From NCBI GenBank assembly GCA_030625775.1, contig DAOUQC010000029.1:1-51438 (forward strand): 51,438 nt of DNA. Direction: 5' to 3'. Positions 26,284 through 41,653 of the stretch are shown in pieces. Positions within the stretch are counted from its first letter, which is position 1. The number at the start of each line of letters is the position of its first letter. The translations under genes and the position numbers were made by a program. The notes beneath the pieces were generated by a model. The model was not told the origin of the DNA. It ran no database searches and saw nothing but the letters and a program-made list of their open reading frames with translations. Origin of the DNA: Verrucomicrobiota bacterium (lineage in GTDB: Bacteria; Verrucomicrobiota; Verrucomicrobiia; Verrucomicrobiales; DEV007).

Positions 26284-26513
26284 AAGCAAGTCCTGTTCAA
26301 GGTTCAGGTTATAGGTATGACACACAAAACCAGCTATCCTTAGTCAAAAATTGTAAAGAATTTGTGAGGATCACAACTGCGCTGGGAAAGTTCTTACAAA
26401 TAGCCGCTCGCTTTGTAATGGCCTAATATCAGACCTCGTGAGAATGTACAGGGTCTATCTCAATAGGTGAAAACAGCACCCACCTGCCAACACTCTACCT
26501 GCGAACAAGCATT

Positions 26514-26732
26514 ATGTATTACATTATCACCGCCAGCTGGATCGTAACCCTCATCGTCAGTTGGAATGACGGAAACCGGGCAATGCCTATCGTTATTGGC
26601 CTTTTAGGCGCAATTATCCAAGCTGGAATCTGGTATCTTGGTTTTGGGTATTTTGGTGTTGGAGGATTAGGTCTGTTGACCGTCATCTGCATGTGGTCCG
26701 TACCCGACATTTTCATTCGTGGTGGAGTTTAG
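26514..26732 (+). CDS. Small two-helix membrane protein
   Basis: A 72-aa frame with two or three hydrophobic segments (YYIITASWIVTLIVSW; MPIVIGLLGAIIQAGIWYLG; LGLLTVICMW), consistent with a small inner-membrane protein. No Shine-Dalgarno sequence is seen. The gene is divergent from the giant secreted protein and convergent with the lipase. The opposite-strand frame over the same bases is Pro/Thr-rich and less protein-like. Function unknown. Confidence 0.45.
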   Translation: MYYIITASWIVTLIVSWNDGNRAMPIVIGLLGAIIQAGIWYLGFGYFGVGGLGLLTVICMWSVPDIFIRGGV

Positions 26733-26745
26733 CTAGATCTCCACC
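26721..26745. terminator. Hairpin at convergent gene ends
   Basis: GGTGGAG (26721-26727) pairs with CTCCACC (26739-26745) over an 11-base loop that contains the stop of the small membrane protein. It lies 31 bases from the end of the convergent lipase gene. The stem is 7 bp and the flanking A/T runs are short, so it may slow transcription from both sides rather than be a strong terminator. Confidence 0.4.
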
Positions 26746-26776
26746 GTCGAAAAATTCACTCTCCCCTTCATCCCTG

Positions 26777-28138
26777 CTACTTCCCGTCCAAAAAGTCCTG
26801 GGTCAGCTCGATCACCTCTGGGTTTGAGAGTATTCCAACATGATCGGAATAGAAGGATTTGAAGTAGACTGACACCCTCAAAACGGGTCCATGCTTTTGA
26901 CTAGCCACGCTGACTGTGCCGTCATTTTCAGGAGGCAAAATCATCGATTTTTTGCTCTTGTTCCCGTATATCAAAAGATGCTCCACTTTGCCCTCCAGAC
27001 TACGCGCATACAAATTCTTTTGGAAATTGCTGCCCGCCTCCATGTCATGCCAGGACGGAACCACTGCAGGCGCATGTTTGACTCCTGCGGCCGCAGCCTC
27101 ATGCCCACCCCAGGGGGTGGAAATTGTCACAAATTTAGTGATGTAGGAATTACCATCATCCAGTACATTCTTGGTAATGAATGACCTCGCCACCATTCCC
27201 CCCATGCTGTGCGCCACCACATGCAGGCGTTTAAATCCATAATAATCGTGTAAGGTCTCCACCCCTCGATTCAGTGCCCCTCCCATCTCATCCAATCTTC
27301 GCCCTGTTGGATAAAAATAGAACCACGGCTGGTATTTTTTACGATCGATTTTTGGGAAAAAAGTCTGCCAATCCTGGGGCGATCCCCCGGCTCCATAAAC
27401 AAACAGGACAGGGATACGGTTAGGGTCGTATTCTTCCAAAAAATATATCCCAATACCTGAACTGATCGGGAAATCAGCTGGCTGCCACAAACCCTGCTCT
27501 CCTCTCTCCGAAGAAAACCTTGGGTCTCCTAGATCAGCAATATCACCCAGGGCAATTGGAATATTCAGACGAGAAATAATTTCCTCTCTTGTTCGTCCTG
27601 CTGCGAAGCGCTTCACGTCGGCAAGCATTTTTGCCGGAATAACTGTCGATTTGCTGAGTTCTCCACTCAATCTTGCCTTACGCTTATTTTCATCAAAGAC
27701 AACCGGCGCTGGCTTACCGCTCGCATCTGAGTGAATCCAGGCAGGCTCCCCCTTGTCATACAACTTGTTCCCATTGGTGTCGCTGTATGCCATGGCATAT
27801 TGATTCTGGGATGTCTTTACAAAAAAACCGAATGTTCCCACGGCATTGCCAACGGTGGTATAATCACCAGACATAACTTCGCCAGACTGCTGATTCCATT
27901 CAACCACTGCCCCATTGATATTTTTCACCCCTTTGGCATTCGCAAGTTTTACCGCCATGATATAACTCTCATCCATGAAATCGAGGTTCCTGCCCAGCAT
28001 CTTGAAATTTGCACAACTTGAGATGAGCATGCAAAGCACCAACCCGGCCAGCAACACAAAACCTGACTGACAATCCGGCCTGGATCCACCAAGTGTCATT
28101 TTTATTTGCTGCCTATTCGCAAAATATCGAATGTTCAT
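26777..28138 (-). CDS. Lipase-like alpha/beta hydrolase lipoprotein
   Basis: A 453-aa protein with a lipoprotein-type signal (GFVLLAGLVLCMLISSC). The N-terminal ~190 residues are a calcium-like or Ig-like accessory region (YSDTNGNKLYDKGEPAW resembles a dockerin/EF-hand-like turn). The C-terminal part is a lipase/PGAP1-like hydrolase with VLFVYGAGGSPQDW, nucleophile motif VAHSMGGMVA and late His in FYSDHVGIL. It would cleave an ester or lipid at the outer membrane. The start could also be the Met at codon 14. It lies 56 nt downstream of the propeller gene on the same strand. Confidence 0.82.
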   Translation of the reverse strand: MNIRYFANRQQIKMTLGGSRPDCQSGFVLLAGLVLCMLISSCANFKMLGRNLDFMDESYIMAVKLANAKGVKNINGAVVEWNQQSGEVMSGDYTTVGNAVGTFGFFVKTSQNQYAMAYSDTNGNKLYDKGEPAWIHSDASGKPAPVVFDENKRKARLSGELSKSTVIPAKMLADVKRFAAGRTREEIISRLNIPIALGDIADLGDPRFSSERGEQGLWQPADFPISSGIGIYFLEEYDPNRIPVLFVYGAGGSPQDWQTFFPKIDRKKYQPWFYFYPTGRRLDEMGGALNRGVETLHDYYGFKRLHVVAHSMGGMVARSFITKNVLDDGNSYITKFVTISTPWGGHEAAAAGVKHAPAVVPSWHDMEAGSNFQKNLYARSLEGKVEHLLIYGNKSKKSMILPPENDGTVSVASQKHGPVLRVSVYFKSFYSDHVGILSNPEVIELTQDFLDGK

Positions 28139-28194
28139 GAAAGCTACCTATCCAATTATTTCCTCTTCTGCAAGAATTGAATAGGACGACAAGC

Positions 28195-29277
28195 TCACTC
28201 GGCCACCAAATCCGCCATATAGATCGCCGTGATCGTCTTGCCGCTCTCATCCTTCTCGTGGCTCGAATACCACGACAACAAACCCTTTTCCGGGCTCAGC
28301 TCAACAAAACCAGGATAGGAATTATCTCCACCACTCGGCAAGATCGCAATCTGCTGCAGACTGTCGTCTTTTCTCAACCAGTACAAAACCGTTTTTGGTT
28401 TACTTACCTTGGCCTCTTTATCAAAATCCATTTTCCGCCCACCAACCAGATAACGTCCGCCCCAGCGGGTGATCATCGGACCACCAATATACACTCCCAG
28501 GTTTTTCCTTTCCCACTCCTGATAGGGAGGCCGCGAGCGACTTAAAGTTGATTCCTTGTTGCGCACCACCGCCACTACCTGGCCATCCGGCTCGAATAGA
28601 AAATCCGTTTCATCTCCTTTTTTGTCCTGGAACATCCCGGCGAACCTCCATCGCAAACCGTCCTCACTCTCCAGCATCGCAGACTCGATATGCCCTGTTT
28701 CCCCCTTGCCTTCCTCGTATCCATGCCTGCGCCGCCCGCACAAATAGGCCTTGCCCTCATGCGCAGTCGCACGCCAGATGTAGTGACCATAAGTTCCCTC
28801 CAGTTGTTCGGGTTCCGACCATTTGGCACCATCCCCGGTCCAGACACCAAAACCAAGATGGGTATTGATTTTGTAATCCTCCCGCTTCGGAGCAGAGTTG
28901 CCACAGTACCAAGTGCCGGTATAAATAAACAGCTTGCCTTTGAAATCCAAAAAATGCGGATCACGCACATCGCGTTTTGGAACGCTGAACTCATGCACCT
29001 TTTCCCACGACTTCGCATCATCGCTGACCAGCACGATTATCTTTGAAGTCGGAAATACCATGTGCCCATCGGGACAGCTGCGGAAGGTCAGATAAAAACG
29101 CCCTTTCCAACGGATCAAATCAGTGAAGGCATTGTGTTCTCCGTTCCAGAAGACCCGGCGCGCATTCTCAACCCGGACTTCGGGCAATGGCCCATCATCC
29201 GCAACCGCGACAGGCACTTGTAATACGACCGCTAACAACAGAGCGGCTAGTGAAAGGGGATTCGAGGGAGTTTTCAT
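28195..29277 (-). CDS. Secreted sialidase-like beta-propeller protein
   Basis: A 360-aa secreted protein starting at the ATG 29275-29277 (AAGGAT just before it), with signal peptide ending in PVAVADD. It has propeller-like repeats reminiscent of sialidases and GH43/GH130-type fold proteins: WKGRFYLTFRSCPDGHM, VSDDAKSWEKVHEF, VRDPHFLDFKGKLFIYTG, SEDGLRWRFAGMF and TRWGGRYLVGGRK. Asp-box-like SDDAKSW and SEDGLRW are imperfect. An exo-glycosidase role is possible but no catalytic set is clear. Next gene downstream on the strand is the lipase-like lipoprotein. Confidence 0.72.
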   Translation of the reverse strand: MKTPSNPLSLAALLLAVVLQVPVAVADDGPLPEVRVENARRVFWNGEHNAFTDLIRWKGRFYLTFRSCPDGHMVFPTSKIIVLVSDDAKSWEKVHEFSVPKRDVRDPHFLDFKGKLFIYTGTWYCGNSAPKREDYKINTHLGFGVWTGDGAKWSEPEQLEGTYGHYIWRATAHEGKAYLCGRRRHGYEEGKGETGHIESAMLESEDGLRWRFAGMFQDKKGDETDFLFEPDGQVVAVVRNKESTLSRSRPPYQEWERKNLGVYIGGPMITRWGGRYLVGGRKMDFDKEAKVSKPKTVLYWLRKDDSLQQIAILPSGGDNSYPGFVELSPEKGLLSWYSSHEKDESGKTITAIYMADLVAE

Positions 29278-29378
29278 ATCCTTAACGTCACCATTCATTT
29301 AGCCAAGGCAAGTCAAAAGTAACACCGCTCCCTGAACCTCCTTGACCTCAGGGGGACGTACCCCTAACCTCCGCAATC

Positions 29379-29906
29379 ATGAAATACCTTGTCATCTCCT
29401 GCAGCTTGAATCCCGACAGCAAAAGCCGAATCATGGCCAATGCCGCCCTTAGCGCCCTTGAAAACAAAGAGGCCGATGTTGAACTGCTCGATCTCGCTGA
29501 ACTGAAACTCCCTCTCTGCGACGGCGGTGCGGTTTACGGTGATCCGACCGTTCAAGAACTTGCCACAAAAGTCGAGGCCGCCGATGGCATCCTGGTCGCT
29601 ACTCCCATCTACAATTTCGACATCAATGCGGCTGCCAAAAATCTCATCGAACTGACCGGCCGAGCCTGGACAGAAAAAGTCGCGGGTTTCCTCTGCGCAG
29701 CAGGCGGCCAGGGTTCTTACATGTCCGTGATGGCCGTCGCCAACTCCCTGATGCTCGACTTCCGCACCGTGGTGATCCCAAGATTTGTCTACGCCACCGG
29801 CGACCAGTTCCAAGGCAGCGAAATTGCTCACGAAGATCTCGGTGAACGCATCGAACAAATGGCCGACGAGCTACTGCGTTTCACCTCTGCTTTACGGGGA
29901 AGTTAG
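29379..29906 (+). CDS. NADPH-dependent FMN reductase family flavoprotein
   Basis: A 175-aa flavodoxin-like protein. The phosphate-binding loop ISCSLNPDSKSR (~6-17), the ATPIYNFDINAAAKN segment (~66-80) and the AAGGQGSYMSV loop (~107-117) are typical of the FMN reductase/ChrR/SsuE group, which reduce FMN, quinones or metal ions with NAD(P)H in the cytoplasm. Length is normal. Its last 4 bases overlap the end of the convergent eda gene. No Shine-Dalgarno sequence. Confidence 0.88.
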   Translation: MKYLVISCSLNPDSKSRIMANAALSALENKEADVELLDLAELKLPLCDGGAVYGDPTVQELATKVEAADGILVATPIYNFDINAAAKNLIELTGRAWTEKVAGFLCAAGGQGSYMSVMAVANSLMLDFRTVVIPRFVYATGDQFQGSEIAHEDLGERIEQMADELLRFTSALRGS

Positions 29907-30550
29907 CCCGCCAGCTCACACGCTTCCCGGGCATTCGCCTCAATTTGATCCCAGTTTTTTGCTGCGATCAAATCCCGCGGAGCAATCCAGCTTCCACCAA
30001 TCGCTGTGACCAGGGGAGAATCGATGTAATCCATCATGTTCGAGGCCTTGATGCCACCAAGCGGGATAAATTGCAGCCCTAGATGTTGGTATGGAGCCAC
30101 GATATTTTTTAAATGAGCCAGCCCACCCGACGATCCGGCCGGAAAAAACTTCAGCACCTCACAACCCAGGGCCACACTCTGATCAATGTCAGTCGGCGTC
30201 ATGATTCCCGGCCCGAAAGCCAGGCCTTTGTCCTGCGCATATTGAATCACCCCGGCATTCACCCCGGGTGCCACACCAAAAGCGGCACCTGCCGCCACCA
30301 CCTCGTCCACCTGTTGTTTGTTCAGGATCGTGCCAATGCCTGCCACCATTTCCGGCACCTCATCACACACCGCCCGCAGTCCTCCCAAGGCCGCTGGCGT
30401 GCGCAAAGTCAGTTCCATCATATCCACCCCGCCCCGCAATAAAGCCTGCGCTGTCGGCACAGCGTCCTCAACCTCATCAATCACCAATACGGCGATGATT
30501 TTTGAAGTGGCTATTTTTTTTCCCAATTCTGAATCCAGACGAATACTCAT
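29903..30550 (-). CDS. eda: 2-dehydro-3-deoxy-phosphogluconate (KDPG) aldolase
   Basis: A 215-aa class I aldolase that splits KDPG to pyruvate and glyceraldehyde-3-phosphate (Entner-Doudoroff or uronate/sugar-acid breakdown). Catalytic Glu in MMELTLR (E46, with R50), GIGTILN, and the Schiff-base Lys in VLKFFPAG (K134) are present, as is the phosphate-binding PLGGIKASN. Length is normal. No edd or kdgK neighbour is seen. AAGG lies close before the ATG. Confidence 0.93.
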   Translation of the reverse strand: MSIRLDSELGKKIATSKIIAVLVIDEVEDAVPTAQALLRGGVDMMELTLRTPAALGGLRAVCDEVPEMVAGIGTILNKQQVDEVVAAGAAFGVAPGVNAGVIQYAQDKGLAFGPGIMTPTDIDQSVALGCEVLKFFPAGSSGGLAHLKNIVAPYQHLGLQFIPLGGIKASNMMDYIDSPLVTAIGGSWIAPRDLIAAKNWDQIEANAREACELAG

Positions 30551-30635: not shown

Positions 30636-31355
30636 ATGATAAAAACATCCTCCATCATTACTCTTCTGGCAATGCTGCTGTTCGCAGGACTTTGCCCCTC
30701 CAATAGCGAAGCCCAGAAAAAGAAACGCAAGCCCAACCCTTCCCTGCAGCCCATCGAGGATGTCGCCGGACTCCCTCGTGTGCTTCTTATCGGCGACTCG
30801 ATCTCAATCGGATACACCCTCCCTGTCAGAGCTCTGTTGGAAGACAAAGCCAATGTGCATCGCCCCAATGCGAATTGCGGTCCGACCACTCGTGGCCTTA
30901 GCGGTATTGATAAATGGCTCGGCGATAAAAAATGGGATGTCATCCATTTCAACTGGGGCCTGCATGATCTCAAATACATGGGATCTAAAAATGAAAACCT
31001 TGCCAATCCAAAAAACTCAACCAGTCACCAACAGGTTCCACCTGCTGAATACGAAAAAAACCTTCGCGCCCTGGTAGCACGAATGAAAAAAACAGGTGCA
31101 AAATTAATCTGGTGTTCGACGACACCCGTTCCTGAAGGAGCCAAAGGTCGGGTGGTCGGTGATAGCGCCAAATACAATGTCATCGCGGCCAAGGTTATGG
31201 CTGACAATAAAATCCCCACTGACGACCTGTATGCCTTCGCCAAGCCGCGCCTCAAAAAAATTGGTAAACCCGCAGACGTTCATTATACCCCCGAAGGTTC
31301 CAAAACTCTTGCCCGGGAAGTTGCCGCCAGTATTTCCAAAGCTCTCGGTAAATAA
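30636..31355 (+). CDS. Secreted SGNH/GDSL-family hydrolase
   Basis: A 239-aa secreted esterase. The ATG at 30636 starts the signal peptide ([20 protein letters not shown]); an ATG-less frame extends upstream. Block I is IGDSISIGY (S55), the Gly block is in NCGPTTRG, the Asn block in [10 protein letters not shown], and the catalytic dyad is DVHYTPEG (D214, H216). Such proteins de-acetylate or de-acylate sugars. Directly downstream on the same strand lies the decayed PVC dehydrogenase gene, with which it may once have formed an operon. Confidence 0.9.
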
Positions 31356-31401
31356 GTCCGGCCAACTTCCCAACACTCCCCTTGTTTCCTGCTGCGTGCA
31401 T

Positions 31402-32136
31402 ATGGCAAGTTCTCACCGGCTTCTATTCGCTGCCTGCGAATCAGTCATTTATCGCGGTGATAATTTCCCCATAGAATACTACGGAAACCTTTTCCTGCCG
31501 GAACCGGCTGGCAACTTTGTGAAACGTACCCTCATTTCTAAACAGGACGGCTCCCCCTCAGTTCAGCAAGCATATAATAATCGCGAATTCTTCACTTCCA
31601 CCGATGAACGCTCGCACATCGTCAACGCCTACACCGCTCCGGACGGCACCCTTTACCTCGTTGATTTTTATCGCGGCATCCTGCAACACGGAGCATTCTT
31701 AACTACCTATCTAAGAAATTAACTACTCAGCCGCAAGCTCAACAAGCCGGTTGGATTGGGGCACATCTACCGCATTGTCAGCCATGACAACGCCTGGTGG
31801 CGCGACACCGCGCAGCGTCTCATCGTGCAAGGCCAGGACTCATCCGCCACACCAGCCCTGCGTGCGCTTTTGCAACCCGATGAAACCACCAAAGCGCTCG
31901 CCACCATTCACGCCCTGTGAACCCTGCATGGCTTGAACCTCCTTAGCCCTTCCGACATCAAACAAGCTCTGCAATCCAAACACAGCCAGGTGGTTGTCAA
32001 TGCCATCTGTGCTGCAGGAATTTTTGCAGAGGAAGGGCAAAGTGCTGACATTCTTAAAATGCTTGCCCCTCTGCTTGATCAAAAAAACAGTGTAATCAAA
32101 GCCCAGCTTTCAGCCAGCCTCGGCTTGTTCCGCAAT
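31402..32136 (+). pseudogene. Relic of PVC membrane-bound dehydrogenase/HEAT gene (middle part)
   Basis: One reading frame shows a continuous family match interrupted by TAA (31720-31722) and TGA (31918-31920). Diagnostic pieces are IYRGDNFPIEYYGNLFLPEP, EPAGNFVKR, FFTSTDERS, YRGILQHGAFLTTYLR, LNKPVGLGHIYRIVSHDN, WWRDTAQRLIVQG and HEAT-like stretches to KAQLSASLGLFRN. This is the pattern of the PVC 'membrane-bound dehydrogenase' propeller followed by HEAT repeats. The TGA falls where relatives have a Trp (LW-TL), so TGG to TGA is the simplest change. The N-terminal half and everything after the HEAT part are missing here; a matching C-terminal tail lies beyond the nos operon at 40378-40482. 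Confidence 0.85.
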
Positions 32137-32223
32137 ACTCCTTACGCGGGAGAATCCACAGGGAAAAAACCTGCCCCAACACCCTCAATCCGGCTACGCA
32201 CCCCAACCCCCGTTTCCCCGCCA

Positions 32224-32628
32224 CTATGGGGAGCCAAAAGTTTTTCGGATGTAGGAAAGGGCGTCCTTCATTTCCTGTTCGGAGAGGACGTCCTTCTGGG
32301 GCGGCATGATCTTGTTGTCAGCGACGATTCCGTTGCGAATCGAGTTTAGCAGGACTTCGTTGGGCTTCGCCAGGCGGGTCTTGTCGGAGACAAAGTTGGC
32401 AGCGAGCATACCGTTCAATCCGGATCCGTCCGGTTGGTGACAAGCAGAGCAAACCCTCAGGTAAACCTCTTTTCCGGCCTCGGGGTCGCCGGGCAAGGGG
32501 TGGGAGACGATCGGCTGGTTGATGACCACGGGTTCCACGGTGGCAGGAACGACCGGATCGGGTTTTGAATCACCGCACCCCGCCAGGAGGGTGCCGACTG
32601 TCACGGCTAGTATTGGATAGTATCTCAT
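32224..32628 (-). CDS. Lipoprotein cytochrome c of the nos operon
   Basis: A 134-aa single-heme class I cytochrome with lipobox LLAGC (Cys ~18), heme site CSACHQPDGSG (~60-70) and distal Met in KIMPPQ. It is anchored in the periplasm or outer membrane by lipid and could deliver electrons to NosZ. Its ATG abuts the stop of nosL (TAAATG), so it is the last gene of the operon and probably translated by coupling. No gene name is given because several unrelated cytochromes occupy this slot in nos clusters. Confidence 0.88.
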   Translation of the reverse strand: MRYYPILAVTVGTLLAGCGDSKPDPVVPATVEPVVINQPIVSHPLPGDPEAGKEVYLRVCSACHQPDGSGLNGMLAANFVSDKTRLAKPNEVLLNSIRNGIVADNKIMPPQKDVLSEQEMKDALSYIRKTFGSP

Positions 32629-33126
32629 TTATTGTTTATTACTTTCTGCTTTCAATTCGTCGAAAATCACCACTTTTCCAGTAAATTTTTTAGCTGCCTT
32701 TCCGGCGGCCTCCTGCGTATTAAATGTCAGGGCGGGTTTCCCCATCACACCTTCCCGTTCGATGTCGATGACAAAAAAGAGTTCACCCGCCTCACCCCAA
32801 GGTTGCCACGCAGTGTCTCGCGTGCCCGCCTCGTGATCATCAGGCATCACTTCGGCATAAATCGCCATCGGTTTACCACTGGGCGAAGGCACCTCAAGAA
32901 AATGCACCAAATCGCCGGTGGAGCAGAGGAACTGGCGGCTTCCGTTGCGGTAAATCACCTGCCCGCGTGGAGCCGGCTGCTCGCGCACCACCATTCCGCA
33001 GGCTGCGCAGGTTTCGGTATCAGCATTTTTGGCTACGAACACCGCTTGGTTTTGGGATGCAGACTCTTCCCGTCGGCAAGCCACCAACACAAGAGCGCAA
33101 CACAAAATTAGGATTAGTTTCTTCAT
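32629..33126 (-). CDS. nosL: NosL copper chaperone lipoprotein
   Basis: A 165-aa lipoprotein (signal ILCCALVLVAC) with the NosL copper-binding signature CAACGMVV, followed by RQFLCSTGDLVHFL and DDHEAGTRDTAWQPW. NosL binds Cu(I) and supplies copper for NosZ CuZ assembly. The ATG at 33124-33126 overlaps the nosY stop (ATGA); an in-frame start 69 bases upstream would give a poor leader. The stop abuts the start of the cytochrome gene. Confidence 0.93.
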   Translation of the reverse strand: MKKLILILCCALVLVACRREESASQNQAVFVAKNADTETCAACGMVVREQPAPRGQVIYRNGSRQFLCSTGDLVHFLEVPSPSGKPMAIYAEVMPDDHEAGTRDTAWQPWGEAGELFFVIDIEREGVMGKPALTFNTQEAAGKAAKKFTGKVVIFDELKAESNKQ

Positions 33127-33923
33127 GTCCGTTCTCGCTTGAGATGGAGAAAAAACACACTCATTAGAAGCGCCCCTACGATCCACCCCAGCCAAATAAT
33201 AGCTTCGACACCCGGCCCTGGAATATAAGCATCCATTCCGAATCCAGAGAAAAAATCATCCCCGCCGAAGCGCTGAATCATAACGATGCGATACAAGCCG
33301 ACAGGGTTAGCCACCACCAAACCAGCACACAGTGAATCGGGAAGAGCACCGTCCGTCACCACCAATGCACCGAGGATCCCCAAATCGTAGAAAAATACCA
33401 ATAAAAACCATATCGTGATGAGGAGGCTGGAAGCAGTAGCCTGCCGTAGCACCACGCTGGAAACCAAAATTCCCAGGGCAAGAAAACTGGCCCCAAGCAG
33501 CAACGAGGGAATGATCAATCGATTCAGCCCAGTTCCATAGTCATCCTCCATCATAAAACTTGCCGCAAAAATGCCCGCCAGGATGGCAAAGGCCAGAGGA
33601 ATGAAGCGCCCCATGAATTTCGCTAGAATAAGTTCCCATCGATGGATCGGCATCGACAGAAGGAGGTTGAGAGTGCGCCGTTCTCGCTCACCGACAACGG
33701 CGTCGAAACCAAGTAAAAGACCAACCAAGGGTATGAGCAGAGACGAGAGCGTTACCAGACTGGGGCCGACCACCTCGCCCTGTGACATGTCTCCGGCTTT
33801 TCCGTAGAGGGTGATGCCCGAACTCAAAAGGACGAACAACAGCGTCAGAACCAGAATCCACCGATCGCGACTCCGTTCGAGAAACTCGTGCCAAACAAGG
33901 GCTCTAGCTACTTTACCCATCAT
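33123..33923 (-). CDS. nosY: NosY ABC-type permease
   Basis: A 266-aa membrane protein with about six transmembrane segments (WILVLTLLFVLLSSGITLY; SLVTLSSLLIPLVGLLLGF; FIPLAFAILAGIFAASFM; LLLGASFLALGILVSSVVL; TIWFLLVFFYDLGILGAL; IIWLGWIVGALLMSVFFL) and the NosY signature region VVGERERRTLNLLLSMP. It pairs with NosF and NosD to form the NosDFY transporter needed for copper-sulfur site maturation. It starts inside the nosF stop (ATGA) and ends inside the nosL start. Confidence 0.94.
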   Translation of the reverse strand: MMGKVARALVWHEFLERSRDRWILVLTLLFVLLSSGITLYGKAGDMSQGEVVGPSLVTLSSLLIPLVGLLLGFDAVVGERERRTLNLLLSMPIHRWELILAKFMGRFIPLAFAILAGIFAASFMMEDDYGTGLNRLIIPSLLLGASFLALGILVSSVVLRQATASSLLITIWFLLVFFYDLGILGALVVTDGALPDSLCAGLVVANPVGLYRIVMIQRFGGDDFFSGFGMDAYIPGPGVEAIIWLGWIVGALLMSVFFLHLKRERT

Positions 33924-34837
33924 GCTGACATGAGCAGGTGCTCGTAGATGTCCTCCATTTCAGGTTCCGTGACTCGCATGGATTCAATAAGGGGATGCCC
34001 ATTGGAAAATGCGCTTGCCATCAAATCCACAATCCGTTCTGGCTCTAGCTCAATCCGAATCGAGTTACCGTTCTGCTCAATCTGCAGGGACTGAAAACGA
34101 TCACGAAGCCCCTCGATAAAATTCGCCTGTCCACTGGAATCTTCCTTCAACGTGAAGCGAACCTTGACTGGAAGGCAGGCTTGTCGACGAAGGGCCGGGG
34201 GATCGTCACAAGCCACCACCGAGCCTGCGCGTAGGATACAAAATTCATCCACTCGTTTTTCCAAGATGCCGAGATCATGCGAAGAGATCAGTGTCAGGCG
34301 ACCCTTTTCGCGCCATTCATCGATCACCGACCAAAGGACGCTGAGCCCCTCCTGATCCAGCCCACTAGTAGGCTCGTCCAAAATCAAAACCTCGGGTTCA
34401 TGGAGAACTGAGATCCCGAGGGCGAGACGCTGCCGCATCCCTTTAGAATAGCCGGAAATGGATCGCCGAGCGGCCTGGCTCAATCCTATGCGATCCATAA
34501 CCACGTGCATCCTCTGGCGTCCAATGCCACGGGCTCGGGCAAAAAACGACATCATCGCCCAGCCTGAAAGATTTTCGCTGAAAGCCACACTTTCCGGCAG
34601 ATAGCCCATGCGAGCCTTGAGCTTGTTGTCGATTGGCATCCGCAAACCATCTACATGAATCCCTCCGCCGTCCGGTAGATATAGACCTAGGAGTATATTA
34701 ATAAGAGTCGATTTTCCAGCTCCGTTCGGCCCGGCCAGAAGCACGGCTCGCGCCGAATTCAGAGTGAGGCTGACTTCGTCCAGTGCCCGCAGTCGTCCAA
34801 AATTTTTCGTAATTTGGTGAAAGGCGATGTTATTCAT
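33920..34837 (-). CDS. nosF: NosF ABC-type ATPase
   Basis: A 305-aa ATP-binding subunit. Walker A AGPNGAGKST, ABC signature GYSKGMRQR, Walker B VLILDEPTSGLD and switch His in ISSHDLG are all present; the C-terminal ~80 residues are the usual extension. The ATG at 34835-34837 lies 8 bases inside the end of nosD (ATGAATAA), better than the TTG three codons earlier. The four-base overlap with nosY suggests coupled translation. Confidence 0.95.
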   Translation of the reverse strand: MNNIAFHQITKNFGRLRALDEVSLTLNSARAVLLAGPNGAGKSTLINILLGLYLPDGGGIHVDGLRMPIDNKLKARMGYLPESVAFSENLSGWAMMSFFARARGIGRQRMHVVMDRIGLSQAARRSISGYSKGMRQRLALGISVLHEPEVLILDEPTSGLDQEGLSVLWSVIDEWREKGRLTLISSHDLGILEKRVDEFCILRAGSVVACDDPPALRRQACLPVKVRFTLKEDSSGQANFIEGLRDRFQSLQIEQNGNSIRIELEPERIVDLMASAFSNGHPLIESMRVTEPEMEDIYEHLLMSA

Positions 34838-36074
34838 CGGAAGCAATGTCGTTCATTAGCGGTTTCCGATCAGTGATGGTGGGTGTGCGCAATACGGGAA
34901 GGCGGCGCTCTAGCAGAGAAAGGGTTTCCAGACTGGGGCTATTCATCAACAACGCGGCAGCAGGAAAACGGTAGAGCAAGCGCGCGTGGAATGAATTGAC
35001 CCGGTAAGGACGGTCTCCGACGCCGTCACCATCCTGGTCCCAGCCGAGATAATCGCTCCAGTAGTTGCCGCGTTTTTCACTGCCCCATTCGATCTCAGTA
35101 GTTCCGACATAAAAAACTTGCTGGCTATTGCCTATAAAACGGTTGCCCTCGACCTGGTTGCGGAGGCTACCTGCCCATATTTTAACGCCCACCTTGTTGT
35201 TCTTTACCAAGTTGTCGAGGATCTTGTTGTTGGTGCTGGAATAAAAAAAAAGTCCCTCGGCATTGCCGATGAGGCGGTTGTTCTGGATCGTGCAGTACTG
35301 AGCATCACGGAACTGGAGTCCTTGCCCCTTGTTGTTCTCGGACAGATTGTTTTCGACGAGAAGGTGCTTGCTCTCCATCAGTGCGTAGCCGTTGCCATTG
35401 TTACGACAGACATTTCCACGAACGGTGTTGCGATAGGAATACATGTAGTGGATGCCGTAGCGAGCCCCCTCGATGTTGTTGCCCTCGATGAGGGAATCTT
35501 CGGTGGCCGAAATGTAGATCCCGTCCCTGCCGTCGCGCACCGTGTTACCTCGTGTCGTCACTTCAGTGCTGTCAAAAAGCTGGATGCCGTTGCCCCGGTT
35601 CGAGGTGTGACCGGTCTTGATCCCCATGACCCGGTTGTCTTCAATGATGACGCCCTGGCATTCGTGTACCCAGATACCGAAGGAGCAGCGCTCAATCAGG
35701 TTCAAAGAGACGCGGCTGCCCGCAGCGGCGGGGCTAAGATAGATTCCACAATCGGGCCCGCTGAGATCAGAGCCCCCGTTCCGCACCCGGATTCCCTCCA
35801 CTACAATGTCAGGAGCGTCTAGAGTGAGCACCGTTCCCTGGCCGCTGCCATCGAGAACACCACCTTTACCGGTGATTGTAATGCTTTTGGCGATGCGGAA
35901 ATTACCAGTGAAAACCCCTTCACCCAACACGATCTCGTCACCATTTTCGCAAACGGATAAAACAGCAGTTAGCGCTTCGGCGTTTGCCGGGCGGTGCTGG
36001 GCGGCCTCAACACTGGACACCACCAGAAGCGCCTTAATCAAAACAGTGAGAATGTATGGAATATAGTTGTTCAA
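34830..36074 (-). CDS. nosD: NosD periplasmic copper-site maturation protein
   Basis: A 414-aa periplasmic right-handed beta-helix protein (CASH/NosD family). The signal peptide is IPYILTVLIKALLVVSSVEA. Regular repeats of ~23 residues follow: IEGIRVRNGG-like, IIEDNRVMGIK, TTRGNTVRDGRDGIYI, LIEGNNIEGARYGIHYMYS, TVRGNVCRNNGNGYALM, LVENNLSENNKGQGLQF and TIQNNRLIGNAEGLFFYSS. The NosD hallmark GNYWSDYLGWDQDGDGVGD is near residue 340. The start codon is TTG (36072-36074), 8 nt after the nosR stop; no ATG is near. Confidence 0.95.
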   Translation of the reverse strand: MNNYIPYILTVLIKALLVVSSVEAAQHRPANAEALTAVLSVCENGDEIVLGEGVFTGNFRIAKSITITGKGGVLDGSGQGTVLTLDAPDIVVEGIRVRNGGSDLSGPDCGIYLSPAAAGSRVSLNLIERCSFGIWVHECQGVIIEDNRVMGIKTGHTSNRGNGIQLFDSTEVTTRGNTVRDGRDGIYISATEDSLIEGNNIEGARYGIHYMYSYRNTVRGNVCRNNGNGYALMESKHLLVENNLSENNKGQGLQFRDAQYCTIQNNRLIGNAEGLFFYSSTNNKILDNLVKNNKVGVKIWAGSLRNQVEGNRFIGNSQQVFYVGTTEIEWGSEKRGNYWSDYLGWDQDGDGVGDRPYRVNSFHARLLYRFPAAALLMNSPSLETLSLLERRLPVLRTPTITDRKPLMNDIASDE

Positions 36075-36082
36075 AGCAGTTT

Positions 36083-38218
36083 TTAAATACGCTTCTTGTA
36101 ATGCTCGAGACGTTTGCGGCGCTCCGGATCATCAGCTCCAGTTTCGAGTTTTTTTAATCCGATCAATGGTGGGCAGATTTCATCTGCGTAATAGTTAGCC
36201 TCACAATGCATACAGTTCAAACACTCCATAGCGTCTATCTTGCCATCGGGTCGGATGGCTTTGGGTTCGCAAATGTCAGCGCAAATGGTGCAGCTGGAGC
36301 AGAATTTGCGCCGGCGGGGGCTGGCGATGCGCAGGAACGAAGGTAGCGCGAGAGCGGCTCCCAAAGGGCAGAGGTAGCGGCAGAATGGACGAAACCAAAA
36401 GAGTGAGCTAACCATCAGGATTAGCCAATACCCAAAGAAACCCCAGGACCGTTGCCAGGGAATTAGAAAAAAGGTCGTTTTGAAAGGTTCAATCTCGGCC
36501 AGCTTTTCACCCAGCTCGGGTGAATAGATGAACGCCGGAACTAATCCAGCAAAGATAAGGTAACGTAAGTAGCGGAGCCCTTGGTGCCACTTCTCAGGCA
36601 ATTCGAATTGTGGAATTTTTAGCCATTTGCCCAGATGATTGAGAAGTTCGCTTAGGGAGCCGAAGGGGCAGATCCAACCACAAAAGACTCCCCGGCCCCA
36701 GAGGAATACTACGATGACTATGAATATCCAACTCACAAACAGTACGGGCTCGGAGAGGAAGAGTTTTCCATCCCATTCACCAACGATAGAGCCAATCAGG
36801 GTGAATATCTGGGTAATGGAGGGTTGGGCAGAAAGCCATAAACCCAGTACCACGAAGGAGACCAGCAACACTACGATCTGGATGAGCTTCAACCGCTTCA
36901 CTGATCCAGTGAGCCATTTGCGCTGGACGAAAAGCCACAGCACACAGCTAAGCACGACGAAAAGAACCACCAGCTTGAACTTCTGGCCTGCCCAGGCGCT
37001 CCTCCAGATCAGAGAGTCAGGATCAGGTCCCTCGAGCCGGTACATTGACTTCGGTAGCCGGTGCGTGCTGCTGAAACTGTGGAACTCTCGGGAGAAGGCG
37101 CTTTTCTTGTCATAGAAACTACCCAGAAAAACCAAATCAAAAGGTCGGCCCGGGTCGATTTCAGCTCCGCGGCTAATAAAAACAGCCCCCTCCTTAAACT
37201 GGGGAGCATCCGGAACTGCAAGAGCAGTCAGGTTGGTATAGTCGGTATCAGCGAATATGCAGGTCAGCAACTTCTGTCGCAGATGCACCCGGTCGAAAAC
37301 ACCACCACGCACAAACCCCGACCCCTTGAAGGAACCCGAACCGTTTCCGAGAATCACAATAAGGTGCTCACCTGGTTCCAATTGCCCCTTGAGATGCTTA
37401 TAGGTGCCCTCACCCAACAAAGGGCGACCGATTTGGAGGGCATCGGCTATAGTAAAGAGCAAATCGACAAAGGCATCCTCACTATCGCTGACCCCCATCT
37501 GCTTTTCGCTAACTCGCAAATGGCCGAAGACCCCTTTGCGTTTCATAGTCGCAAACGACCAATCTTGTTCTGACTCGACAAAAGCCCCCGGCAGGGTGTC
37601 CTGGAGCTCTAGAACTCCCACTGCGGTGCCGAGCGCACGCGCTGTATCGAGGATGGTTGAGTTCTCGGCCAGTACCGTGACGGTTGCTCCGGAAACGGCG
37701 GCCACACCCAGGGGATCTGCGTCGGCTGTGCCTACTGTGATCTGGGCGTCGGCTCGTTTATCGATATAGAAGTTAACAAAATCAATAAGCTTCTCTTCTG
37801 GAATTCCCAGTAGGATGATGGGTTCGCTATGGTGGATTATCTTGGCGCCGCGAATGATCCCATCCAGATCGAGGCCAACAAGAGTCACTAGCGGCTTTCC
37901 TGAGTATCCCTTTATCGAGACGACATCAGTGGATAGCACCACCCAACCAACGGCCTTTCCATCAGCGTCTACTCCCTCTCGGAAAGGCTGGTTAGGAACC
38001 TCCCGGAAGGACTTAGCTCCCGGCAGCACCTCCTTCAACTGCCCCTCAGACAGATCCGTAATTCGAATAGCCTGAGCGTGTAACTGCCCCCCAGTCACGA
38101 GGAACAGCAGGCACGCCATGAGGACACCAACCTGGATCATTCTGGGTCTGATTAGACGCAAGGTGGAACGAGGATGTTGATGGGAATTGTTCTTTCTCCC
38201 TACAAAGGCAGCAGGCAT
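36083..38218 (-). CDS. nosR: NosR electron-donating flavin/iron-sulfur membrane protein
   Basis: A 711-aa NosR. Order: hydrophobic leader (MIQVGVLMACLLFLVTGG), periplasmic FMN-binding domain with the flavinylation motif SGATVT (~176-181), about five transmembrane segments, two CxxxCP motifs (CGWICP ~512; CRYLCP ~612) and a cytoplasmic ferredoxin part with CSSCTICADIC (~639) and CLNCMHC...CP (~666). NosR passes electrons to NosZ and is a hallmark of typical clade I nos clusters. The start ATG overlaps the nosZ stop by one base (TGATG); the Met at codon 27 would be an alternative that trims an Arg/His-rich extension. ApbE, which would attach FMN, is not in the window. Confidence 0.95.
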   Translation of the reverse strand: MPAAFVGRKNNSHQHPRSTLRLIRPRMIQVGVLMACLLFLVTGGQLHAQAIRITDLSEGQLKEVLPGAKSFREVPNQPFREGVDADGKAVGWVVLSTDVVSIKGYSGKPLVTLVGLDLDGIIRGAKIIHHSEPIILLGIPEEKLIDFVNFYIDKRADAQITVGTADADPLGVAAVSGATVTVLAENSTILDTARALGTAVGVLELQDTLPGAFVESEQDWSFATMKRKGVFGHLRVSEKQMGVSDSEDAFVDLLFTIADALQIGRPLLGEGTYKHLKGQLEPGEHLIVILGNGSGSFKGSGFVRGGVFDRVHLRQKLLTCIFADTDYTNLTALAVPDAPQFKEGAVFISRGAEIDPGRPFDLVFLGSFYDKKSAFSREFHSFSSTHRLPKSMYRLEGPDPDSLIWRSAWAGQKFKLVVLFVVLSCVLWLFVQRKWLTGSVKRLKLIQIVVLLVSFVVLGLWLSAQPSITQIFTLIGSIVGEWDGKLFLSEPVLFVSWIFIVIVVFLWGRGVFCGWICPFGSLSELLNHLGKWLKIPQFELPEKWHQGLRYLRYLIFAGLVPAFIYSPELGEKLAEIEPFKTTFFLIPWQRSWGFFGYWLILMVSSLFWFRPFCRYLCPLGAALALPSFLRIASPRRRKFCSSCTICADICEPKAIRPDGKIDAMECLNCMHCEANYYADEICPPLIGLKKLETGADDPERRKRLEHYKKRI

Positions 38219-40119
38219 CAACTGACCATCATGCGTCCGCGCATTTCAAGGTGCAGTGCATGACAAAACCAAGGGCAATAATACCAATAAAGACCTGGTT
38301 TGCCGGCAACAAAGGTATAGCTCTGTGTGTCCTGGGCATTAACCAGGAAGTTCACATCATGCTGAGGAACACAAAACCCGTGGCTCAAGTCCTCTACATT
38401 GTCCTGGTTGGTGATGATCACCTGCACCTGATCCCCCGACTTCACCTGAAACTCATTCATACCGAATTTTGGTGCCATCGAAGTCATGTAAACCCTCACT
38501 TTTCCGGCGCCTTTAGAGACCACCTTGTTGTCCTTCATCAAATCCACGCCATCCTCCTTGGCCCACTTTGCATACATCTTGAAACGATCATCAGTGCGGG
38601 GCTGGATGCTGGTGGGATGGATCAGGTCACTCTTAACGATAACCGCATCATGCGGCTCCGGGAAAGTTGGCCCATCGTGAACGAGCTTCATCTCCTTGCC
38701 GGAGATATCGAACAATTGGTCGTTCTCGGGATGCAGGCATCCAACATTTAGAAAACGATCTTTCGAGAATTTGCATAGAGCCACCAGCCATTTACCGTCA
38801 GCATCCTTGGTCTCGCTCATCGAGGCGTTGGTATGCCCCACCTGGTAGTGGACATCAATCTTCTGAAGGATGGGGTTCACGTCCTCCCCCTTGAACTGCT
38901 TGAGTGCGTCTGCGATGTTCCACTTTGTCATCACCGAATCGAGGAAGATCGAGGTGTAGGCATTACCCTTACCGTCGAAGGCTGTGTGGAGCGGCCCAAG
39001 GCCTACTTCCGGCTCAGCCACCACAGAATCGCGGGGTTTGATCTCGCCGGAGAACACATCTGCAAGCTTGTCGATAGCTATGACACTACAAGTCGGGGAG
39101 AGTTTGCCAGAGCAGATCGCGTATTTCCCAGTGGGATCAATGTTCACTCCATGAGGACTTTTTGGCACCGGAACACGCATCACAAACTCACTGTCCTTAC
39201 CTCGGGCATCAATCACTGGCACCGGCGAATCACCCAGAGTTATACCCTTACCCCCCTTCACTGCCTTTTCGATATTGGCAAGATTGAAAACATAACAATA
39301 GTCCTGATCGCTGGCCATCATGCCTTCAAGAGTGACCGCCCCTTCGGAGTTGTAACAGGTGGCAAATGAATAGAGGCCCTTGTAATCAGTGGCGCAGAGA
39401 TCCAGGTTGCCTTCGATCATGACCTGCCATTTGACCTCCATGGTTTCGCCGTCGATGGCGGTATGCAAGGCAGCATATTTTTTCGGGTCATCGAGGTCAC
39501 GACCGTCGTTAGGAAGAGGCGTCCGGAATTCAGAATTGCAGAAAACCAGTCCAGTCTTGTGCCGCTGGGGGAAAATTCCGTGAGTTCCTTGAGCATTCGG
39601 GATATCAACGATCTTGTCCGTCTCCATCGTTTTGATATTCACCCGAGCCAGACGGGCCTGAGATTTGTCATTAACAAAAACATAACGCCCATCATAGGTG
39701 CCTTTGTCGTAGGACAGGTGAACATGGTGCGTATCACCTGACTGCGTCCCCTTGAGAAGCTTCTTGGAAAAATCGGTCGCGCCCCATCCGGTGGCGGCAT
39801 CGCGGTTAAAGACCGGAATGCGTTTCAGTTCCCGCATCGAAGGGATGCCTAAGATGCGAATCTCTCCCGATTGTCCACCGCTCCAAAAGCCATAATAATC
39901 GTCCAATTTGCCCGGACCAACCTCAGCATTGCTTGCGTGAGACTTGGGAGAATCATCGCCTTCACTTTTATCTTCGCTTACTACGCTGTTACCCCCATTG
40001 CAGCCGGTCATGGCTCCCAGAGCCGCCCCACTTCCGGCCATAGAGACCCCAGTGAGAAATTTCCGGCGATCCAGCGCCTGCGCCGGATTGTGTTGCTTAC
40101 CCTTGGATGATGATTTCAT
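38218..40119 (-). CDS. nosZ: Nitrous-oxide reductase, typical clade I form
   Basis: A 633-aa reductase of N2O to N2 in the periplasm. A Tat-type leader (RRKFL at 18-22, then a weak hydrophobic stretch ending in GAMTGC, Cys40) precedes the seven-bladed propeller. CuZ histidines: H131, H132, H180, H323, H378, H429 and H490. CuA ligands: H580, C615, W617, C619, H623 and M626. The spacing and long segments (GKLSPTCSVIAIDKL, KWLVALCKFSKDRFL, NKVVSKGAGKVRVYMTSMAP) follow the proteobacterial clade I enzyme. The GHT-N-AS segment keeps the CuZ His (H429) but lacks the second His seen in typical clade I enzymes. First gene of the operon; only a weak AGAAG precedes the ATG. Confidence 0.97.
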   Translation of the reverse strand: MKSSSKGKQHNPAQALDRRKFLTGVSMAGSGAALGAMTGCNGGNSVVSEDKSEGDDSPKSHASNAEVGPGKLDDYYGFWSGGQSGEIRILGIPSMRELKRIPVFNRDAATGWGATDFSKKLLKGTQSGDTHHVHLSYDKGTYDGRYVFVNDKSQARLARVNIKTMETDKIVDIPNAQGTHGIFPQRHKTGLVFCNSEFRTPLPNDGRDLDDPKKYAALHTAIDGETMEVKWQVMIEGNLDLCATDYKGLYSFATCYNSEGAVTLEGMMASDQDYCYVFNLANIEKAVKGGKGITLGDSPVPVIDARGKDSEFVMRVPVPKSPHGVNIDPTGKYAICSGKLSPTCSVIAIDKLADVFSGEIKPRDSVVAEPEVGLGPLHTAFDGKGNAYTSIFLDSVMTKWNIADALKQFKGEDVNPILQKIDVHYQVGHTNASMSETKDADGKWLVALCKFSKDRFLNVGCLHPENDQLFDISGKEMKLVHDGPTFPEPHDAVIVKSDLIHPTSIQPRTDDRFKMYAKWAKEDGVDLMKDNKVVSKGAGKVRVYMTSMAPKFGMNEFQVKSGDQVQVIITNQDNVEDLSHGFCVPQHDVNFLVNAQDTQSYTFVAGKPGLYWYYCPWFCHALHLEMRGRMMVS

Positions 40120-40377
40120 TGTCTTCTAATTGGTTGATTGTAGTCGATACTGATAATCGTGATTCCGCCATAGGGCGGGCCTTCTGTAGTGGCTACGCCC
40201 GGGGGGGCGGTAAGGATGCACTAAAACAGTAAAGTGCCACGGAGCAAGCTCTCTCGCTTAGGCGAGATTTCGCTTTTCCCCAGCTTTGGGCTGCCACAAT
40301 TCCCATTGAAACAACGCCCCTCCATGACGGCTCTTGGGCATGCCAGGTATTTTCCCGCTGAGAGCGCCGCCCGTTGC

Positions 40378-40482
40378 CGAATCCACGCCGCCCCCGTTTC
40401 ACAAAAAGCACTCGCCAATTACCGCGAGCAACACCAAGCCCGCCTGCCATTCACCGAAGCCGAGGTGAAAAAAATCAAATAG
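40378..40482 (+). pseudogene. Relic of PVC dehydrogenase/HEAT/cytochrome gene (C-terminal tail)
   Basis: Thirty-four codons and a stop in plus-strand frame read RIHAAPVSQKALANYREQ, then HQARLPFTEAEVKKIK. This matches the end of PVC dehydrogenase/HEAT/cytochrome c proteins, where a segment of the type 'W-G-N-x-A-x-P-V-(S/T)' is followed ~20 residues later by 'P-(W/F)-T-x-x-E' and the stop. There is no start codon or upstream domain. Its orientation is the same as that of the relic at 31402-32136, on the other side of the nos operon. The 258 bases between nosZ and this tail (40120-40377) hold short palindromes and a G7 run but no gene. Confidence 0.6.
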
Positions 40483-40484
40483 GT

Positions 40485-41450
40485 CTACTTAAACTCCCCT
40501 GCATCGTACTTCGGCCAGAATTGAGCAGGCGGCAGCAAGGTATTCAAATCCTGTTCGAATTTGCTACCTATCTGGGTCATCGTCGTGATCCCTCGGATCC
40601 CGTCGATGCCCTTGGTGATCTTAGCCGGATCAAAAACCAAGCGGGTCAAAGGCAACCCTGCCAGCGAGCTCAAATCTGTCACTGCGGTTTCGCCAATATG
40701 AATCCTTTGAATCTGGGTTTGTGCCAGGGGACTCACATCTTCCACTTTGGTTCGATGCAGAGTCACGCTAACCAAAGGACTTCCCGCCAATGCAGAAATA
40801 TCCTTCACTGGCAAACCCGTCAGCCACAACATCTTCAACGGCATCCCCCTTAAAGCACTGATATCTGAAATTCGGGTGCCTACCATATTAAGCTCGGATA
40901 TCGACAAGCCCTTCAGTGGGGAAATATCCTTCACATTGCTTTTATCCAGATAGAGCTTCTGCAGATTTTTCATACCCACCAGAGGTGAAAGGTCTTCCAC
41001 TCCTGTCCCATCCAAAAAGAGCTCAACCATTGGCATGCCCTTCAGAGCGCTGATGTCAGTGACCGGGCAAGCTTGAAGATCCAGCATCATCAAAGGCATG
41101 CCGCGCAATGGCTCGACACTGGTGATTCCGCACTGCGCCAAACGGATAGCGATCACCCGCCCGCCTTCGATCCGAAATTCCCCATTTCCACTGTAGCCCA
41201 CATTGGCTGCGCGCAAAGCCTTGTGCAAGGTCAGCTCTGTCCAGACGGTAGGGGCTTTGGTTTTTTCGACTGTCGGCTTAGGCGCTTCTTTTACCTTCTC
41301 GGTGACTTTAGCTTTGTCACTCGGCTCCGGCTTCTTGCTTTCAGCCTTTTCCACCTTGGTCTCCAATGAGGCTTCCGGCTCAGATTTCTGCTCTCCGCAG
41401 GAAAACATCAAAACCACCGGCAAAACTCCACATGCAAATATTCTCTTCAT
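40485..41450 (-). CDS. Leucine-rich-repeat lipoprotein
   Basis: A 321-aa protein starting at the ATG 41448-41450, chosen because it begins a lipoprotein signal (IFACGVLPVVLMFSC, Cys ~18). A long Lys/Glu/Pro linker (~22-70) is followed by ~9 short LRRs of the internalin/'DISALKGMP' type: SVEPLRGMPLMMLDL, DISALKGMPMVELFL, DLSPLVGMKNLQKLYL, DISPLKGLSISELNM, DISALRGMPLKMLWL, DISALAGSPLVSVTL, DVSPLAQTQIQRIHI and DLSSLAGLPLTRLVF. Surface-anchored recognition or binding role likely; ligand unknown. Its end nearly touches the convergent dehydrogenase relic. Confidence 0.85.
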   Translation of the reverse strand: MKRIFACGVLPVVLMFSCGEQKSEPEASLETKVEKAESKKPEPSDKAKVTEKVKEAPKPTVEKTKAPTVWTELTLHKALRAANVGYSGNGEFRIEGGRVIAIRLAQCGITSVEPLRGMPLMMLDLQACPVTDISALKGMPMVELFLDGTGVEDLSPLVGMKNLQKLYLDKSNVKDISPLKGLSISELNMVGTRISDISALRGMPLKMLWLTGLPVKDISALAGSPLVSVTLHRTKVEDVSPLAQTQIQRIHIGETAVTDLSSLAGLPLTRLVFDPAKITKGIDGIRGITTMTQIGSKFEQDLNTLLPPAQFWPKYDAGEFK

Positions 41451-41653
41451 GCGGTGACTTTCCCGCCTCGCCACACAAATTGCAAGCCGCTCGCTCACTT
41501 TCCACAAAGCATTCATCATGCTCTCATGCGGAAAAGGTTGGGTATCCACCGATTTTTTAACCTCATTTGATACAATAGTCCTGAAAAATGAGCAAGAAGA
41601 CCTAGTAATATCTATTGGCAAAACTAAAGTTTCCCATCGATTTTACCCTGGCC

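Follow-up and report, generated by a model that had tools for sequence, protein, structure and literature searches.

A clade I nitrous oxide reductase operon in a Verrucomicrobiota genome, probably acquired laterally and lodged in a broken heme-protein gene

Nitrous oxide (N2O) is a greenhouse gas, and N2O reductase (NosZ) is described as the only known enzyme that turns it into N2 (PMC13122619). NosZ of Verrucomicrobiota has been assigned to clade II (PMC13122619, PMC11102522), while operons with a clade I enzyme are usually seen in other phyla; one clade I metagenome-assembled genome (MAG) of Myxococcota from wastewater is described in PMC11409646. Ralstonia and Acidovorax are reported to have the gene order nosZRDFYL (PMC9973335, PMC6696639), and a section heading of PMC9973335 presents the betaproteobacterial cluster as apparently horizontally transferred, with a variable context. 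A leader that combines a twin-arginine translocation (Tat) signal with a lipobox is described for NosZ of haloarchaea (PMC8301774). Here, a clade I nos operon is reported from the window, i.e., the whole 51,438-nucleotide contig stretch of a Verrucomicrobiota genome (G000). No report of clade I nos in this phylum was found in the literature searches made; genome surveys such as PMC12569097 may hold cases in their data.

We consider it very likely that this operon was gained laterally from a Myxococcota-centred branch of clusters with the order Z-R-D-F-Y-L and was then inserted at different sites, in G000 breaking a heme-protein gene. The complete operon, which the initial annotation had read as nosZ-nosR-nosD-nosF-nosY-nosL-cytochrome c in transcription order, agrees with open reading frames (ORFs) and profile matches at 32224-40119:

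38218-40119, minus strand: nosZ, clade I N2O reductase, 633 amino acids (TIGR04244; alignment to solved NosZ; Tat leader with Arg18 and Arg19; lipobox ending at Cys40)
36083-38221, minus strand: nosR, FMN-binding/4Fe-4S membrane flavoprotein, 712 amino acids, putative start codon (NF046105, 532 bits; Fer4_5; motifs)
34830-36074, minus strand: nosD, periplasmic maturation protein (TIGR04247, 410.7 bits, cut-off 300)
33920-34846, minus strand: nosF, ATP-binding cassette (ABC) ATPase (PF00005; position and identity to NosF of other nos clusters)
33123-33923, minus strand: nosY, ABC-2 permease (PF12679; position and identity to relatives)
32629-33195, minus strand: nosL, copper chaperone with a lipobox-like Cys in its leader, seen by eye (PF05573, 76.6 bits)
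32224-32628, minus strand: monohaem cytochrome c with a lipobox-like LLAGC, seen by eye (PF13442/PF00034)

NosZ, the single copy found in G000 (given as 96% complete with 0.3% contamination), scores 913.7 bits against the Tat-dependent model TIGR04244 (cut-off 625) and 471.3 bits, under the cut-off, against the Sec-dependent model TIGR04246. Alignment to solved NosZ chains, together with motif positions, locates all the residues that we take to be CuA ligands, namely His580, Cys615, Trp617, Cys619, His623, and Met626. The CuZ ligands, whose identities follow PMC8301774, are likewise all present as His131, 132, 180, 323, 378, 429, and 490. Both the full ligand set and the CuA and CuZ spacings of 35, 49, 51, and 61 had been recognized in the initial annotation, and the ligand positions agree with them. 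The leader reads DRRKFLTG...GAMTGC, in which the twin-arginine motif DRRKFL at residues 17-22, in keeping with the Tat-type leader proposed earlier, is followed by a lipobox, MTGC, at residues 37-40 at the end of the hydrophobic stretch. From these pattern matches, NosZ is predicted to be a membrane-tethered Tat lipoprotein.

The NosR partner is also present, as judged by its motifs (an SGAT flavinylation-type motif, two CxxxCP, and one CxxCxxCxxxC) and by its match to NF046105, which spans most of the model and lies below the NCBIfam cut-off of 1000; RnfG is its sole relative among solved structures (E 3e-5). The CxxCxxCxxxC motif occurs in 13/13 inspected NosR proteins of the Z-R arrangement and is absent from 4/4 gammaproteobacterial NosR of the R-Z arrangement. 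NosF and NosY matched no nos-specific model and are named by position and by their matches to other nos clusters. A homologue of the terminal cytochrome c, which is likely a membrane-tethered electron carrier, stands at the same position in loci L017, L018, L020, L027, L031, L034, and L047. An FNR-type box upstream of nosZ was not convincing: shuffling predicts 7.1 one-mismatch sites for the window and eight were counted, including one at 40134-40147.

Among the best 80 of 279 relatives on genome contigs, with identities taken from the best segment, the closest NosZ proteins are those of L017 (94%) and L018 (80%), which are taken as the nos loci of G061, a congeneric sister species, and G183, an Akkermansiaceae genome, respectively. 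At 62-80% follow Myxococcota and 'Deltaproteobacteria' MAGs, an Oligoflexia MAG, two 'uncultured proteobacterium' MAGs, and Sulfidibacter corallicola (Acidobacteriota). Some gammaproteobacterial and Gemmatimonadota MAGs stand at 58-65%, and Pseudomonadota NosZ of the Pseudomonas and alphaproteobacterial types mostly at 52-59%. In the same 80 loci, nosR lies downstream of nosZ in 26, upstream in 48, and on the other strand in one, with none shown in five; in the best 27, it is downstream in 25 and not shown in two. The gene order, which had been called unusual, does differ from the arrangement with nosR upstream of nosZ, but it is common to the nearest relatives and to Betaproteobacteria, including Cupriavidus and Eleftheria plasmids, and was discarded as a mark of oddity. 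Plasmid carriage of a near relative was also rejected; the 144 matched plasmid records all fall below 60% identity. Viral contigs gave no match to the six peptide patterns tried.

NosZ trees were built from hand-chosen rows, i.e., a quick tree with 96 of 97 rows, a careful tree with 35 of the 97, and a third of 32 rows that joined 28 of the 97 to four plasmid rows and includes two Betaproteobacteria and one haloarchaeon. The quick tree separates 80 clade I rows from 16 Verrucomicrobiota clade II rows with a split support of 100; these 16, long NosZ proteins chosen from the Verrucomicrobiota samples described below, are all clade II. This split and the model scores agree with the clade I type proposed initially. 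In the careful tree, the window sequence joins L017 (100/100) and then L018 (100/98), and the three belong to a clade of 23 rows (100/99), 15 of them titled as Myxococcota. Two trees of NosR-D-F-Y were built, the first with 27 rows and the second with 26 after L042 was dropped; the first places the three Verrucomicrobiota in the same branch as NosZ does. Joining their NosZ with five gammaproteobacterial R-Z rows is rejected at 5e-5. The phylogenetic check suggested with the initial annotation places these proteins in a Myxococcota-rich branch of clade I and not in clade II, and on these trees we regard their membership of that branch as firm.

The distribution of clade I NosZ in the phylum is patchy. 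When a carrier is defined as a genome with a match over the TIGR04244 cut-off, there are three in 288 genomes of the order (G000, G061, and G183, the last of another family), one in 387 of the phylum (G000), two in 74 of the family (G000 and G061), and one in the 14 of the genus of G183 (G183 itself). G211, a third congener in the family search whose genome is 73% complete, gave no clade I NosZ match.

The three carriers hold the operon, in the same gene order, at three different sites. In G183, its neighbours are an ArgC/ArgJ pair on one side and a TerC-family gene on the other. Between G000 and G061, the similarity of the operons at the DNA level ends close to the genes themselves, and in G000 the remains of another gene lie on either side:

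32223-40220, no strand assigned: extent of DNA homology with the G061 nos operon and no more, the unit that moved (blastn, 83.7% over 8019 columns)
31429-32151, plus strand: broken PVC-type heme-binding CxxCH gene, residues 304-566 of the 874-amino-acid G061 copy, with two stop codons (tblastn, 48% identity)
40387-40479, plus strand: the same broken gene, C-terminal residues 844-874 (tblastn, 77% identity)

The counterpart of this site in G061 (contig C32) carries the heme-binding gene intact, with 874 residues and membership of TIGR02604 and DUF7133, between the same neighbours, which are a KDPG aldolase and a GDSL protein on one side and a leucine-rich repeat protein and a DeoC aldolase on the other. 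In G000, the nos operon lies between the two remnants on the opposite strand to the broken gene, which has lost about 277 codons at the point occupied by the operon and about 303 of its 5' part; in G211, both ends of the gene are found at two contig ends, with the middle out of view. Conversely, 9.2 kb comprising nos and a VapBC toxin-antitoxin pair lie in G061 (C289, L126 joined to L127, joined coordinates 20685-29911) within the ribosomal-protein gene region, between the map (M24 peptidase)-secY and the rpsM (S13)-S11-S4 genes, where G000 and G211 each have 51 bp. Thus, G000 and G061 each lack the operon at the other's site, and the search for an empty site proposed with the initial annotation was successful in both directions. 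Most simply, the state with the intact gene would be the older one at the window site. Eight flanking genes share 78-94% identity with their G061 counterparts, and therefore the contig belongs to the host. The leucine-rich repeat protein adjoining the operon (40485-41621, minus strand) has internalin-like repeat matches and is conserved in G061 and G211.

Taken together, model scores, trees, patchy distribution, and reciprocal empty sites support the lateral gain of N2O respiration that had been suggested from the window alone. An inherited Verrucomicrobiota branch with one operon order and one location, the outcome named beforehand as speaking against such a gain, is not what was found, since the order is shared by the three carriers and the locations differ.

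Several observations weigh against this interpretation. The base composition of the operon, with a guanine-cytosine (GC) content of 0.528 and a third-position value (GC3) of 0.593, matches that of 26 other window genes (0.521 and 0.568), and is unlike that of the 18 Myxococcota-type loci measured, which have a GC content of 0.60-0.71; the compositional check proposed earlier thus yielded no foreign signal, and composition was dropped as a mark of foreign DNA. The backbone of the 23-row clade is open in the careful tree, and the nearest sister shifts, being two Polyangiaceae-type rows with NosZ (support 92 in the quick and 97 in the 32-row tree) and Sulfidibacter (98) in the combined NosR-D-F-Y tree. 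Forcing the Verrucomicrobiota outside the other 20 NosZ rows is rejected at p 0.029 only, and placing them outside the other 16 R-D-F-Y rows is not rejected at 0.05 (p 0.062), the groups in these tests having been defined with the trees already in view. The 14 neighbouring proteins scanned, three of which match nothing, include no recognizable recombinase, and within 31300-40600 no pair of repeats brackets the operon; neither mark of a mobile element, its own recombinase or bracketing repeats, was seen within the proteins and interval scanned. Additionally, all three carrier assemblies are fragmented and were analysed without reads, and many sampled genomes are incomplete, so the absence counts are upper bounds.

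The host-like composition implies that the gain is old or ameliorated, and silent divergence bears on the same point. Between G000 and G061, 473/1171 four-fold sites differ in the nos genes (40.4%), against 461/964 (47.8%) in eight flanking genes at the window site and 480/969 (49.5%) in nine at the G061 site; gene by gene, the seven nos genes range over 38-48% and the 17 comparison genes over 34-61%. Near-background silent divergence and host-like composition together indicate that the gain is not recent. The operon has therefore been in the genus for almost as long as the two species have been separate, either by descent from their ancestor with a later move or by an exchange shortly after the split; for the genus taken alone, descent with relocation is quite possible.

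Alternative explanations differ in how they account for these data. If the operon had been present in the ancestor of the order, lost nearly everywhere, and moved by rearrangement within genomes, the single clade formed by the three Verrucomicrobiota NosZ would be expected, as would a nos divergence near that of the flanks; this old vertical inheritance is nevertheless improbable, as it needs loss in about 285/288 of the order genomes sampled (some incomplete) and in 13/14 of the genus of G183, and the clade sits in a branch in which 15 of 23 rows are Myxococcota. A faulty binning or assembly that joined a foreign nos stretch to a Verrucomicrobiota contig is conceivable for fragmented assemblies whose junctions were seen without reads; we regard it as highly improbable, however, because the window extends 32 kb and 11 kb beyond the operon, the host genes on both sides match G061 and G211, the composition is host-like, and two more assemblies hold related operons. 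A stronger competitor, which we rate as a substantial though lesser possibility, is that the operon reached the two sister species and the Akkermansiaceae genome in separate events, from a shared pool and possibly by exchange among them. All three sites differ, in line with this explanation; the pooled nos divergence is below both flank sets, and the nos proteins of G000 and G183 are 73.7% identical, compared with 63% for SecY (measured between G061 and G183). On the other side, the span of values for the 17 comparison genes, taken singly, covers all seven nos genes. Lateral gain from the Myxococcota-centred branch, followed by insertion at different sites, is the explanation that we prefer.

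Under this preferred explanation, the operon would work as a unit at the membrane. The apo-NosZ would be exported in a folded state by Tat and lipidated at Cys40. In known nos systems, the accessory genes serve enzyme maturation and electron supply, and NosD-F-Y with NosL would accordingly be candidates for supplying the sulphur and copper of CuZ, while electrons from the quinone pool would reach CuA via NosR and the tethered cytochrome c. At the membrane surface, CuZ would then reduce N2O to N2.

The predicted anchor is common in the branch. A strict lipobox occurs in 19/23 NosZ proteins of the Myxococcota-rich branch, two more having Pro-Gly-Cys and two no Cys, as opposed to 0/7 in the neighbouring branch and 1/50 in a comparison set of mostly R-Z loci. 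A twin arginine is found at the called start in 21/23 branch members and upstream of it in the other two; among the 16 clade II rows, 11 have a strict lipobox and none matches the twin-arginine pattern. The comparison set consists of L045-L096 minus L047 with 50 leaders scored, includes L087 (nosR on the opposite strand), L051, and L091 (no nosR seen in either, and L091 without its leader), and excludes L076, a short frame dropped from trees and leader counts. A Cys after the twin arginine was also seen by eye in NosZ of Cupriavidus (L197), Eleftheria (L198), and one haloarchaeon; given the Cys in the betaproteobacterial leaders, lipid-anchored clade I NosZ may be widespread. The lipobox in most of the branch predicts membrane-bound clade I N2O reductases. 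More tentatively, we speculate that Z-R-D-F-Y-L clade I nos is a self-contained 8-kb chromosomal cassette able to pass between phyla and to insert anew with no recombinase in sight, even in a ribosomal-protein region or in host genes, and that relies on a lipid-tethered NosZ and a tethered cytochrome c and not on soluble periplasmic ones.

Other denitrification genes accompany the operon. G000 has a NapA-like gene whose best NapA models are under their cut-offs, with nap-like neighbours by eye, and a cytochrome d1 cluster. The NirS-like protein of this cluster reaches 499 bits against PF02239 and matches nothing in NCBIfam at 1e-10; a copper nitrite reductase was looked for in G000 and not found. 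In G061, there are a NapA-like gene and a NirK that passes the cut-off, along with a NorB-type fragment where a contig ends. The G000 organism may thus be a fuller denitrifier, and its earlier description as otherwise built for glycan breakdown is incomplete in view of the NapA-like and NirS-like genes. The congeners apparently differ in nitrite reductase, with NirS-like and d1 accessory genes in G000 (L190, L191; C19) and NirK in G061 (L193; C372). Near nirS (L190:7271-14378) are a weak COX1 protein, a CuA-type subunit, a second COX1 protein, an SCO protein, and a cytochrome b/ferredoxin fusion; these may belong to an oxidase or to an NO reductase, and the solved matches of one of the haem-copper proteins beside nirS are terminal oxidases, mostly ba3-type cytochrome c oxidases. 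Elsewhere in the window, a 2148-amino-acid ORF (19879-26325, minus strand) matches neither Pfam at 1e-5 nor NCBIfam at 1e-8.

The presence in Verrucomicrobiota of a clade I system with NosR, together with an interrupted gene and reciprocal empty sites, is direct evidence that N2O respiration has spread and moved. Among known systems, the clade II cluster of Methylacidiphilum caldifontis IT6 (nosCZBLDFYC) shares the phylum and an N2O reductase with the window; however, it is described with a Sec leader and without NosR (PMC11102522). The clade I nosRZDFYLX type of Pseudomonas and Paracoccus has the same copper ligands, Tat export, and NosR partner, but NosR lies upstream of NosZ (the 48 of 80 loci are all Pseudomonadota by record title), and 49 of the 50 comparison leaders show no strict lipobox match, one of the leaders being incomplete. 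The NosZ of Haloferax mediterranei is predicted to have a Tat and lipobox leader (PMC8301774), although it is archaeal, and the haloarchaeal Natronococcus NosZ is 43% identical to that of the window. The betaproteobacterial nosZRDFYL clusters have the same order and, by annotation in the two records inspected (Cupriavidus and Eleftheria), a Tat-dependent NosZ, whereas this NosZ is about 50-51% identical to the window protein and forms a separate tree branch, and NosR has 873 amino acids in these two records as against 712. Insertion sequences are reported around the Ralstonia cluster, and none were found around the window operon. The closest systems are the Myxococcota-type clusters (L019-L034, L043) and that of Sulfidibacter corallicola (L023), which share the order where it is readable, a NosZ of 63-80% identity, a Tat leader, a lipobox in the large majority, and a terminal cytochrome c gene in some, but belong to other phyla, differ in their higher GC content, and encode non-NosZ operon proteins of about 35-57% identity. 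The kind of enzyme is therefore already known, and the newer parts are its host, its mobility, and the predicted lipid anchor.

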